Shown here in pieces: positions 9,685 to 23,539 of a stretch of 40,230 nt of DNA (its first letter is position 1; the number at the start of each line of letters is the position of its first letter). The DNA comes from an uncultured Bacteroidota bacterium. GTDB taxonomy: Bacteria > Bacteroidota > Bacteroidia > Chitinophagales > Chitinophagaceae. The position numbers were made by a program, and so were the translations under genes. The stretch spans positions 1-40,230 of the forward strand of contig CAIYAG010000269.1 of the NCBI GenBank assembly GCA_903924075.1, in the 5' to 3' direction. The notes below the pieces were generated by a model. That model saw only the letters and a program-made list of their open reading frames with translations. It searched no databases and was not told the origin of the DNA.

Positions 9685-11952
9685 ATGAGAAAACAGATTT
9701 TCGCTGCTGCAGTTTTGCTTCTGTCGGCTTCTTTTTTGCAGGCCCAGATAAAAGCACCAGCAACCATTCCTACTTATAAAAATGCTAAAGCTTCCATTAC
9801 TGAGCGGATCAATGATCTTTTAAAGAGAATGACGGTAGAAGAAAAAGCCGGTCAGCTGAATCAAGTAAATGGAGGTGTATTTACCGGACCAGCAGCAAAC
9901 GATCCTGGTCAGAAAGCAAAAATGCAAATGACCCGTGAAGGTAAAGTGGGATCTTTTTTAAATGTCATTGGCGTGAAAGAAACCAAGAATGCTCAAAAAG
10001 TGGCTGTAGAAGAAAGTCGCTTAGGTATCCCTTTACTTTTCGGATTTGATGTGATTCATGGCTATAGAACCATTTTCCCTATTCCTCTTGCAGAAGCCTG
10101 CAGTTGGGATTTAGTGGGCATCGAAAAAAATGCTTCTATCCATGCCAAGGAAGCTGCCTCAGCCGGTGTTCATTGGACCTTTGCACCCATGTGTGATATC
10201 AGCAATGATCCACGTTGGGGTAGGGTAATGGAAGGTGCGGGAGAAGATCCTTATTTGGGTGGAATGATATCTGCAGCAAGAGTAAAGGGTTTGCAGGGAG
10301 ATCTGAGTGATGCGAATCATATCATGTCGACCGTTAAGCACTATGCAGTTTATGGCGCAGTTGAAGCGGGAAGAGAATATAATAATGTGGATGTTTCAAG
10401 AGTGGCTCTTTGGAACAAATATTTACCTCCTTATAAAGCAGCAGTTGGTGCAGGTGCAGCAACTGTGATGAATTCATTTAATGTATTTGATGGTGTTCCT
10501 GCAAGTGGGAACAAATATTTAGTCACTGATGTGCTTGAAAAGAAATGGGGTTTTAAAGGATTTGTGGTGAGCGATTGGGCCAGTTTTGGAGAAATGGTAA
10601 CACATGGTTATGCTGCTGACGCAAAAGATGCAGCATTGAAAGCATTTCAAGCAGGAAGCCATATGGATATGGAAGCAAATGTTACCGGAAAATATCTACC
10701 AGAATTATTGAAGGAAGGTAAGATTACCATGAAGCAATTAGATGAAGCAGTAGCAAGGGTTTTATATTTTAAATTCAAGTTGGGTTTATTTGATGATCCT
10801 TATAAATTTTCAAACGAAGCCAGAGAATCAGCTACATTGTTTAGCGAAGCCAATCGTGCAGTGGCATTAGAAGCAGCAAAGCGTTCTATTATTTTATTGA
10901 AAAATAACCATGATGTATTGCCATTAAATGCATCATCAGGTAGAAAGATCGCTTTGATCGGTCATTATGCAAATAGCAAAGAAGACATGTTCGATTTCTG
11001 GATCGCCAATGGAACTGCGAATGATGCAATAACAGTGTATGATGGTATGCAGAAAAGATTCGGCGCCGCTAATGTTTCATTTAGCAAAGGCTATAATGAT
11101 GATGCAACCACAAACGAGACATTGATCAAAGAAGCTGTTGCAGCCGCAGATAATGCAGATGTTGTTGTGGTAAATATTGGTTTATCTGGTAAGATGGCTG
11201 GAGAAGATAGAGCGCTTGGTAATATTAATATTTCTGATGGACAGGTTGCTTTATTAAAAGCCTTGCAAAAAAATGGCCGCCCAGTTATTGCACTAGTGAA
11301 TAGTGGTAGACCGATGGTGTTAACGCAAATTCAAAATTACACAACTGCCATTTTACAAACATGGATCTTGGGTACTGAAACTGGAGATGCCGTTGCTGCG
11401 GTATTAGCAGGTGATTATAATCCATCAGCAAAAACAGTAATGAGTTTTCCATATGCATTGGGTCAGATTCCTATTTATTATAACCATTTTAATACAGGTC
11501 GCCCAATCCCCGATACAGGTGATCAAGGCTGGAAATCTCGTTACAGAGATCAACCCAATGATCCGTTGTATCCATTTGGATATGGATTGAGTTATACTAA
11601 TTTCACCTATAGTGGCATGTTGATCAACAAAACTGCTATTCAAAAAACCGAACCATTGCAAGTGAGTATCACCGTAAAAAACACTGGTAAATTTGATGGA
11701 GAGGAAGTGGTACAATTATACATCAGAGATATCACCGCATCAATTGTTCGCCCGGTTAAAGAATTAAAAGCCTTCCAGAAAATCTTCTTAAAAGCAGGCG
11801 AGAGCAAAGAAGTGAAATTCACACTAACTGCTAAAGACCTAAGCTTCTATGACGCAGAAGGAAATAGTATCATTGAAGCGGGAGCGTTTAAAGTAATGAT
11901 TGGGGGGAACTCGAAAGATGTGACGGAGAAAGATTTTGAAGTAAGGAATTAG
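9685..11952 (+). CDS. bglX: Glycoside hydrolase family 3, periplasmic beta-glucosidase (BglX-like)
   Basis: Signal peptide; MTVEEKAGQLNQ, FGFDVIHGYRTIFPIPLAEACSWD, GFVVSDWASFGEM (nucleophile Asp), C-terminal fibronectin III-like domain. Confidence 0.94.
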   Translation: MRKQIFAAAVLLLSASFLQAQIKAPATIPTYKNAKASITERINDLLKRMTVEEKAGQLNQVNGGVFTGPAANDPGQKAKMQMTREGKVGSFLNVIGVKETKNAQKVAVEESRLGIPLLFGFDVIHGYRTIFPIPLAEACSWDLVGIEKNASIHAKEAASAGVHWTFAPMCDISNDPRWGRVMEGAGEDPYLGGMISAARVKGLQGDLSDANHIMSTVKHYAVYGAVEAGREYNNVDVSRVALWNKYLPPYKAAVGAGAATVMNSFNVFDGVPASGNKYLVTDVLEKKWGFKGFVVSDWASFGEMVTHGYAADAKDAALKAFQAGSHMDMEANVTGKYLPELLKEGKITMKQLDEAVARVLYFKFKLGLFDDPYKFSNEARESATLFSEANRAVALEAAKRSIILLKNNHDVLPLNASSGRKIALIGHYANSKEDMFDFWIANGTANDAITVYDGMQKRFGAANVSFSKGYNDDATTNETLIKEAVAAADNADVVVVNIGLSGKMAGEDRALGNINISDGQVALLKALQKNGRPVIALVNSGRPMVLTQIQNYTTAILQTWILGTETGDAVAAVLAGDYNPSAKTVMSFPYALGQIPIYYNHFNTGRPIPDTGDQGWKSRYRDQPNDPLYPFGYGLSYTNFTYSGMLINKTAIQKTEPLQVSITVKNTGKFDGEEVVQLYIRDITASIVRPVKELKAFQKIFLKAGESKEVKFTLTAKDLSFYDAEGNSIIEAGAFKVMIGGNSKDVTEKDFEVRN

Positions 11953-12013
11953 TGAAGAGATAAGAGTGAAGAGTGAAGAACGGATAATCAATCGGCTCGA
12001 AATTATTTTTCTT

Positions 12014-12037
12014 AAACCCTAGGCATGCCTAGGGTTT
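12014..12037 (+). terminator. Perfect 24-bp palindrome AAACCCTAGGCATGCCTAGGGTTT followed by T-rich tract; probable terminator for bglX
   Basis: Self-complementary sequence followed by TTCTTTT on the plus strand, 62 nt after the bglX stop. Confidence 0.75.
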
Positions 12038-12070
12038 TTCTTTTGAATGAAATACATCTTTTTCTTTAAA

Positions 12071-12091
12071 ACTCTTGGCATAGCCAAGAGT
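12071..12091 (-). terminator. Hairpin ACTCTTGGC-ATA-GCCAAGAGT; probable terminator for the minus-strand gene ending at 12137
   Basis: 9-bp stem, 3-nt loop; minus strand reads ...GCCAAGAGTTTTAAAG. Confidence 0.65.
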
Positions 12092-12136
12092 GAATCGTTT
12101 AGACAATGCCAGTCCGTTCTTCACTCTTCACTAAAA

Positions 12137-13297
12137 TCATCCAATTGCCTGGTTAAGATCTTCTATAAGATCTTCAACGTCTTCAATCCCAACACTCAAC
12201 CTAATCAAAGAGTCTGTTAACCCGTTCTTGATGCGTTCTTCTCTTGGAATGGATGCGTGTGTCATGGTTGCTGGATGATTGATCAGTGATTCAACTCCGC
12301 CCAAACTTTCAGCCAGAGAAAACACTTTGGTGCTACTTAAAACTCTTGTTGCATTTTCAACGCTATCATCTTTTAAAGTAAAACTCATCATGCCACCAAA
12401 CCCGCGCATTTGTTTTTTGGCAATTGCGAAATTGTGATGGTCTTCAAAACCACACCAGTAAACCCTTTGCACTTTAGGATGATTGCGTAAGAAATGGGCG
12501 ATCTTCTCACCGTTCTCACAATGACGTTGCATCCGAACGTGCAAAGTTTTTATACCTCTCAAAACTAAGAAGCAATCCATTGGGCCAGGTACTGCACCGC
12601 TCGACTTTTGAATAAAATAAAGTTGATCACGCAAGTCAGCATCATTCATCATCAAGCAACCTTGGATCAAATCGCTATGACCACCTAAATATTTGGTAGC
12701 TGAATGCATCACAATATCTGCCCCTAGTGTTAATGGATTTTGTAAATAAGGTGATGCAAAAGTATTGTCTACACAAAGTATTGCTTTTGCTTTTTTAGCA
12801 ATTACTGCAACTGCTTCAATGTCGGTAATATTCATGAGTGGATTGGTTGGTGTTTCAATCCAGATCAATTTTGTTTTGGCTGTAATAACTGAGGCAATAT
12901 TGTTTGCATCAGTTGTATCTACGTAAATAAATTTAATACCAAACTTGGCAAATATTTTTGTGAAAAGGCGATAGGTGCCGCCATACATATCATTCGCGGC
13001 AATTACTTCATCACCTGGTTCTAATAATTTAATTACAGCATCGGTTGCTGCAACACCACTGCTGAAAGCCAATCCGAACTTAGCCTGCTCAATTTGCGCA
13101 TAAGCTTCTTCCAATGCTTTTCGGGTTGGATTCTGACTGCGTGCATATTCAAAACCTTTATTAACACCAGGAGCAGCTTGCACAAAAGTGGAGGTTTGAT
13201 AAATAGGAGTCATGATCGCCCCAGTGGATGGATCCGGTTCAGCGCCTGCATGAATATACTTTGTTCCCAGTCTCAAATTATTTTCTTGACTACTCAT
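12137..13297 (-). CDS. Cystathionine gamma-synthase / gamma-lyase family PLP enzyme
   Basis: MTPIYQTSTFVQ, ANDMYGGTYRLF, CVDNTFASPYLQNPLTLGADIVMHSATKYLGGHSD (PLP lysine), SLGGVESLINHPATMTH. Confidence 0.93.
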   Translation of the reverse strand: MSSQENNLRLGTKYIHAGAEPDPSTGAIMTPIYQTSTFVQAAPGVNKGFEYARSQNPTRKALEEAYAQIEQAKFGLAFSSGVAATDAVIKLLEPGDEVIAANDMYGGTYRLFTKIFAKFGIKFIYVDTTDANNIASVITAKTKLIWIETPTNPLMNITDIEAVAVIAKKAKAILCVDNTFASPYLQNPLTLGADIVMHSATKYLGGHSDLIQGCLMMNDADLRDQLYFIQKSSGAVPGPMDCFLVLRGIKTLHVRMQRHCENGEKIAHFLRNHPKVQRVYWCGFEDHHNFAIAKKQMRGFGGMMSFTLKDDSVENATRVLSSTKVFSLAESLGGVESLINHPATMTHASIPREERIKNGLTDSLIRLSVGIEDVEDLIEDLNQAIG

Positions 13298-23326: not shown

Positions 23327-23387
23327 ATTTTTAGTGAAGAGAGAAGAGTGAAGAGTGAAGAACGGACGTAGATTATCTTAACGAATT

Positions 23388-23408
23388 ACCCTTGGCAAAG
23401 CCAAGGGT
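23388..23408 (+). terminator. Hairpin ACCCTTGGC-AAA-GCCAAGGGT followed by T7; probable terminator of the DHS-like gene
   Basis: 9-bp perfect stem, 3-nt loop, T tract on the plus strand. Confidence 0.8.
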
Positions 23409-23440
23409 TTTTTTATGCGACCAACTTTATCTAAATGAAA

Positions 23441-23463
23441 AACCCTAGGCAAGGCCTAGGGTT
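23441..23463 (-). terminator. Hairpin AACCCTAGGC-AAG-GCCTAGGGTT; probable terminator of the M28 peptidase gene
   Basis: 10-bp perfect stem; minus strand reads GCCTAGGGTTTTTCATTT. Confidence 0.75.
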
Positions 23464-23539
23464 AAAAAATGATTGTCTATAAACAAATGATTGTCCGTTC
23501 TTCACTCTTCACTCTTCACTCTTCACTCTTCACTTTCCT

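Follow-up and report, generated by a model that had tools for sequence, protein, structure and literature searches.

A dispersed heptad-bounded cassette with two terminator-like hairpins, placed between converging genes of an uncultured Chitinophagaceae bacterium

The gap between two converging genes in a 40,230-nt stretch of DNA from an uncultured member of the Chitinophagaceae (the whole stretch is called the window here) is filled by one copy of a dispersed non-coding cassette, which probably acts as a two-way intrinsic terminator; we put the probability of this reading at roughly 0.7. The family, its anatomy, its paired and co-varying stems and its placement can be read directly from the DNA. 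The source genome is a draft assembly of 3.44 Mb in 471 contigs, 94% complete, and among named organisms it is closest to Sediminibacterium and other Chitinophagaceae. The two copies in the window and the neighbours of the first are laid out as follows.

9685-11952, plus strand: left neighbour of copy 1, a GH3 glycosidase gene (bglX-like), TAG stop at 11950-11952
11951-12132: copy 1, whole element, inverted arrays of 7-bp units around a 138-nt core
11951-11984, plus strand: left arm of copy 1, AGTGAAG AGATAAG AGTGAAG AGTGAAG AACGGA, overlapping the TAG of the GH3 gene
11980-12117, plus strand: core of copy 1, 138 nt from ACGGA to TCCGT (model R1, 131 bits)
12014-12037, plus strand: hairpin 1 of copy 1, perfect palindrome AAACCCTAGGCATGCCTAGGGTTT, T tract on the plus strand
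12071-12091, minus strand: hairpin 2 of copy 1, ACTCTTGGC-ATA-GCCAAGAGT, short T tract on the minus strand
12113-12132, minus strand: right arm of copy 1, minus-strand reading AGTGAAG AGTGAAG AACGGA
12137-13297, minus strand: right neighbour of copy 1, gene of a PLP-dependent enzyme of Cys/Met metabolism, stop at 12137-12139
23333-23366, plus strand: left arm of copy 2
23362-23498, minus strand: core of copy 2, in the opposite orientation to copy 1 (model R1, 131.2 bits)
23388-23408, plus strand: hairpin of copy 2, ACCCTTGGC-AAA-GCCAAGGGT, T tract on the plus strand
23441-23463, minus strand: hairpin of copy 2, AACCCTAGGC-AAG-GCCTAGGGTT, T tract on the minus strand
23494-23534, minus strand: right arm of copy 2, five AGTGAAG units and AACGGA on the minus strand

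Read as GTGAAGA-type heptads, the left arm of copy 1 consists of GTGAAGA GATAAGA GTGAAGA GTGAAGA (11952-11979) and ACGGA (11980-11984), and the right end of TCCGT (12113-12117) and two TCTTCAC units (12118-12131). An earlier note on this DNA had described these heptads, the ACGGA/TCCGT pair, the palindrome and the second hairpin, and all of them lie at the positions that it gave. It had also held that the element fills the convergent gap, which is the case: the first heptad begins on the last base of the bglX TAG, and five bases separate the last heptad from the stop of the PLP-enzyme gene. The inner arms (11965-11984 and 12113-12132) are 100% complementary over 20 nt. Across the window we counted 12 heptad-pair matches against 0.21 expected, with none of 100 shuffles as high; a chance origin of these pairs is excluded. 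The related copy reported 11 kb away is real as well, flanked by a deoxyhypusine-synthase-family gene and an M28 peptidase gene. Neither copy has an ORF inside, and both lie between protein-coding genes, outside 23S rRNA. A known RNA family for copy 1 was rejected, as the best Rfam match within 11900-12200 reached 21 bits against a gathering score of 39.8 and nothing came near any Rfam gathering score.

A covariance model search of the source genome returned 25 full cores scoring at least 100 bits. Among 100 relatives searched, the closest (G035) had 7 cores and the other 99 no convincing core, two very weak matches being at chance level for the size of the search. The dispersed non-coding repeat family postulated in the earlier note is thus borne out; a genome-wide count of only two copies had been set beforehand as the result that would speak against it. 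The cores of the source genome agree in the order and spacing of their parts and in their flanking motifs (AATCGTTT..GACAAT, on either side), and their stems differ. Unrelated terminators might look alike by convergence, given that a hairpin with a T tract is a generic design, but the order, spacing and non-stem motifs common over 135 nt and the 25 strong model matches make this scarcely credible. Independent terminators without a family were rejected on the covariance model search.

The stems were compared over 35 model-aligned matches, a few of which are one core read on both strands. In this alignment, which was fitted to the structure and hence favours pairing, 97.7% of cells are paired, and slid controls nevertheless stayed at or below 60%. 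Both sides change in 16 of 19 pairs, 115 cells are compensatory and only four show a one-sided change; none of 500 shuffles reached these pairing and covariation values. The near absence of G-U steps suggests that the stems turn over by wholesale exchange or by correction at the DNA level. At two orthologous pairs of sites in the source genome and G035 the stem has been replaced outright: CCCTAAGC versus CCCTTGGC at L061/L294, and a longer stem, CCCCGTCCCGAG, versus CCCTTGGC at L079/L290.

Convergent gaps hold 26 of 28 classifiable cores, against a background of 24 convergent gaps among 210 in a 420-kb sample of the genome, where classifiable means that a gene was called on both sides by a simple longest-ORF rule that may err in single cases; this enrichment was one of the checks proposed earlier. 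In 21 aligned cores, T tracts stand behind hairpin 1 on the plus strand and behind hairpin 2 on the minus strand, the combination of hairpin and T tract that marks intrinsic (Rho-independent) terminators. For copy 1 itself, the claim of T tracts on opposite strands held for hairpin 1. Its hairpin 2 has only a short minus-strand tract (GTTTTAAAG), which is longer in most other copies, and a simple terminator scan accepted hairpin 1 and not hairpin 2. The hairpins fold with z values of -3.8 to -5.1, and a read-through RNA folds at -73.8 kcal/mol (z -8.6) with the arms closing the stem.

We infer that transcription ends at the cassette. Each transcript would cross a stop-codon-rich heptad arm just past its own stop codon and would then meet first the hairpin with the U tract on its own strand; hairpin 1 would terminate the GH3 transcript and hairpin 2 the PLP-enzyme transcript. 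In RNA reading through from either side, the inverted arms would pair into a long stem around both hairpins, which might be a substrate for RNase III. Paired intrinsic terminators of convergent genes likewise combine two hairpins whose U tracts lie on opposite strands, but the cassette is delivered as a repeat family with end arrays of its own. In this lineage, many ends of convergent genes appear to be furnished with the same portable, two-way terminator-like cassette, the stems of which turn over with pairing kept.

Most heptad arrays, whether or not they accompany a core, lie on the coding strand 0 to 10 nt past a stop codon. GTGAAGA repeats contain a stop in every frame of the coding strand, so that an array can stand only at or after the end of the preceding gene. 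Array length has a sharp mode at four units (77 of 116 arrays in the source genome, 55 of 78 in G035), to which an altered fifth is added, and long arrays of 10 to 15 units are also present. Heptads are often found at contig ends of the draft genome; GTGAAGA arrays of at least 10 units stand at the ends of contigs C17, C34 and C37 and probably break the assembly. Many stretches of the source genome and G035 were picked for holding heptads, which biases heptad densities in them, and the control stretches of two further relatives (G066 and G070) were picked regardless.

Arms and core do not always occur together. At the bglX site, the heptad arms of G035 lack a core, and neither arms nor core is present in relatives at about 77% protein identity. 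The arms are thus a module separable from the core, and gain and loss of the core at this site cannot be polarised, since the nearest relative has arms only and the more distant ones lack both. The same comparison of orthologous loci, which the earlier note had suggested, found the core in both genomes at four other sites (L049/L289, L061/L294, L079/L290 and L115/L291). At all but two of the heptad loci compared between the two species, the other species also has such heptads; one exception has a different gene content and one a different heptad family. One site carries ATTCAAA-type units in the source genome (L340, 256-341) and AGATAAA-type units in G035 (L316, 5143-5171).

Over 15 orthologous sites, AGATAAA occurs 2 times in the source genome versus 47 in G035, and AGTGAAG 76 versus 36, despite flanks that are about 83-88% identical. 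Because the units differ together at these sites, they have evidently been homogenised within each genome, presumably by gene conversion, re-insertion or selection by a common binding protein. This concerted change bears on the idea that the heptads are tandem repeats made by polymerase slippage, tolerated past stop codons and found around ordinary terminators by chance. Heptamers are over-represented in many bacteria, where slippage has been proposed (PMC4692102), and the arrays of 10 to 15 units would fit. We nevertheless regard slippage as unlikely, as lengths peak sharply at four units in place of a broad, unconstrained distribution, the arms are inverted with left matched to right, the core belongs to a defined family, and the units change in concert at orthologous sites.

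The cassette had further been likened to MITE and REP elements. Its terminal inverted repeats (20 nt, 100% in copy 1) agree with the former, but MITE status did not follow, with neither a target-site duplication nor a clean insertion site found among the compared orthologous loci. A REP-like nature in the strict sense was not upheld either: the ends are tandem heptads, and a search with PF01797 (RAYT/Y1 transposase) gave 0 matches in the 94% complete source genome and was positive in 5 of 14 control genomes. Like BIME, REP and REPIN elements of E. coli and Pseudomonas, the cassette is multi-copy, extragenic, mosaic and hairpin-forming, and those elements likewise often lie at gene 3' ends. It differs from them in having 7-bp tandem arrays as ends, in a genome without a RAYT match, in its near confinement to convergent gaps, and in stems that vary between copies by compensation with pairing kept, where a REP or BIME would have a conserved short palindromic unit. 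REP/RAYT identity was rejected on the lack of a transposase match and of conserved stem sequences. Movement in trans by a DNA transposase, as for a classical MITE or REP/BIME, would account for the inverted ends, the many copies and the small size; the PF01797 result, the lack of a visible target duplication and the variable stems, with interiors replaced and arms staying, make it quite improbable. A phage origin was also rejected, the arm 19-mer having no match in viral contigs. We infer that the cassette is mobile. Arms of the same units accompany a PF05635 gene of the source genome, a possible autonomous parent, but PF05635 is not known as a transposase.

PF05635 is the 23S-rRNA intervening-sequence protein (IVP/S23p), a widespread four-helix bundle with a mysterious role. 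The source genome has two such genes, one between a GTGAAGA arm with a half-core and a 14-unit array, the other flanked by arms of a second heptad family (AATTCAA/AAGTCAA) that also occurs elsewhere in this genome. At 62 of 86 PF05635 loci, the inverted-repeat match between left and right flank exceeds the 95th percentile for mismatched pairs, and the flank arrays of these 86 loci typically have about four units of 7 or 8 bp, differing between elements. In a set of 30 loci spread over the phylum, arrays of 7/8-bp units reach 19 per 12 kb beside the PF05635 gene versus 22 per 78 kb further off, so that they are about five times as dense near the gene. Four genus relatives without a PF05635 gene have 2 period-7 intergenic arrays in 400 kb, and two relatives with one have 19 in 234 kb, in stretches chosen regardless of heptads. 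A dependence of period-7 arrays in general on the PF05635 gene is supported. Strict dependence of all heptads was rejected, as two genomes (G069 and G013) have the second heptad family with no PF05635 gene detected. Most PF05635 elements of three relatives (G066, G070 and G073) have units of their own, which differ from those most common in non-coding DNA of the sampled G066 and G070 stretches. We found no description in the open-access literature of heptad arrays that stand inverted on either side of a PF05635 gene in the space between protein genes.

These arm pairs also bear on the possibility that the heptad arms are sites in the 3' UTR at which a protein, perhaps a PF05635 pentamer, binds RNA or DNA in a sequence-specific way, and that they are kept by selection independently of any mobile element. 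The arms stand just past stop codons on the coding strand, their unit number is fixed, their units change in concert between species as expected if a common binder had changed, and Xanthomonas heptads are similarly placed (PMC4692102). Such sites alone would leave unexplained both the conserved core and the inverted arm pairs that bound PF05635 genes, and we consider this account rather unlikely.

There is, in our estimate, an even chance that the arms are the ends of IVS-like elements, which carry the PF05635 gene in other copies, and that the window cassettes are ORF-less relatives that would spread as heptad-bounded gene ends undergo exchange or conversion with one another. In the Coxiella 23S IVS, (GACAGAT)3 GACAGAA precedes the S23p start and terminal inverted repeats are present (PMC4990558). 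The cassettes resemble it in inverted terminal repeats that form a stem, in heptads (there before the ORF) and in the occurrence of PF05635 in their ORF-bearing relatives; unlike it, they lie between protein genes and not in rRNA, and the window copies have two terminator-like hairpins and no ORF. A PF05635 ORF between inverted repeats, as in an IVS, is found at the related loci and not in the window copies. Other intergenic tandem heptads have been described, namely TAACTGA repeats in Beggiatoaceae, cyanobacteria and some Bacteroidetes (PMC4679880) and GGGAATC repeats in Xanthomonas (PMC4692102). Head-to-tail 7-bp units stand at many intergenic sites here too, but ordered into inverted arms whose length hardly varies and which enclose either a terminator core or a PF05635 gene.

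A bolder version, put forward tentatively and on balance doubtful, is that PF05635 genes define a phylum-wide class of small elements ending in inverted arrays of about five 7/8-nt units. The pentameric ring of the protein may bind a five-unit arm (one unit per subunit, TRAP-like) and drive the spread or homogenisation of arms, and the window cassettes would be ORF-less members of the class co-opted as two-way terminators. The five-unit ring is suggested by the four-unit peak with its altered fifth unit, by an X. campestris family member that is a pentamer (PMC4990558) and by the five chains of 2rld, the closest solved relative of the PF05635 protein of the source genome. If the link to PF05635 is true, the repeats would be ends or binding sites of the elements of IVP/S23p proteins. 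It offers a testable connection between two puzzles, the abundant bacterial 7-bp tandem repeats and the role of these proteins.

Several smaller observations concern the arms and their surroundings. In loci L349-L448, from the genus and from Bacteroidota, IVP/S23p genes are often bounded by inverted 7-bp, 8-bp and a few 9-bp arrays, and the PF05635 locus L380 has arrays of 11 GGGTTAAAA and 9 TTTAACCCC units. Repeats of AGTCAAAATTCAAAA are present in G069 and G013, and in G069 they lie almost exclusively on one strand (11 vs 1). A AATGGAGGA block behind some arms was considered as a relic of the PF05635 start codon, as at L350, and this did not prove general. Other repeat modules, among them GGGGCTTCGCCC-type and CCCCTCCTGGGAGGGG palindromes, stand just inside the arm at L072, L070, L078 and L117, so the arms are joined to several kinds of interior. 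Within one gap on the minus strand of L110, from base 1523 (contig C265 of the source genome), GTGAAGA-type heptad units occur in alternation with several parS-like sites (GTTTCACGTGGAACC and variants).
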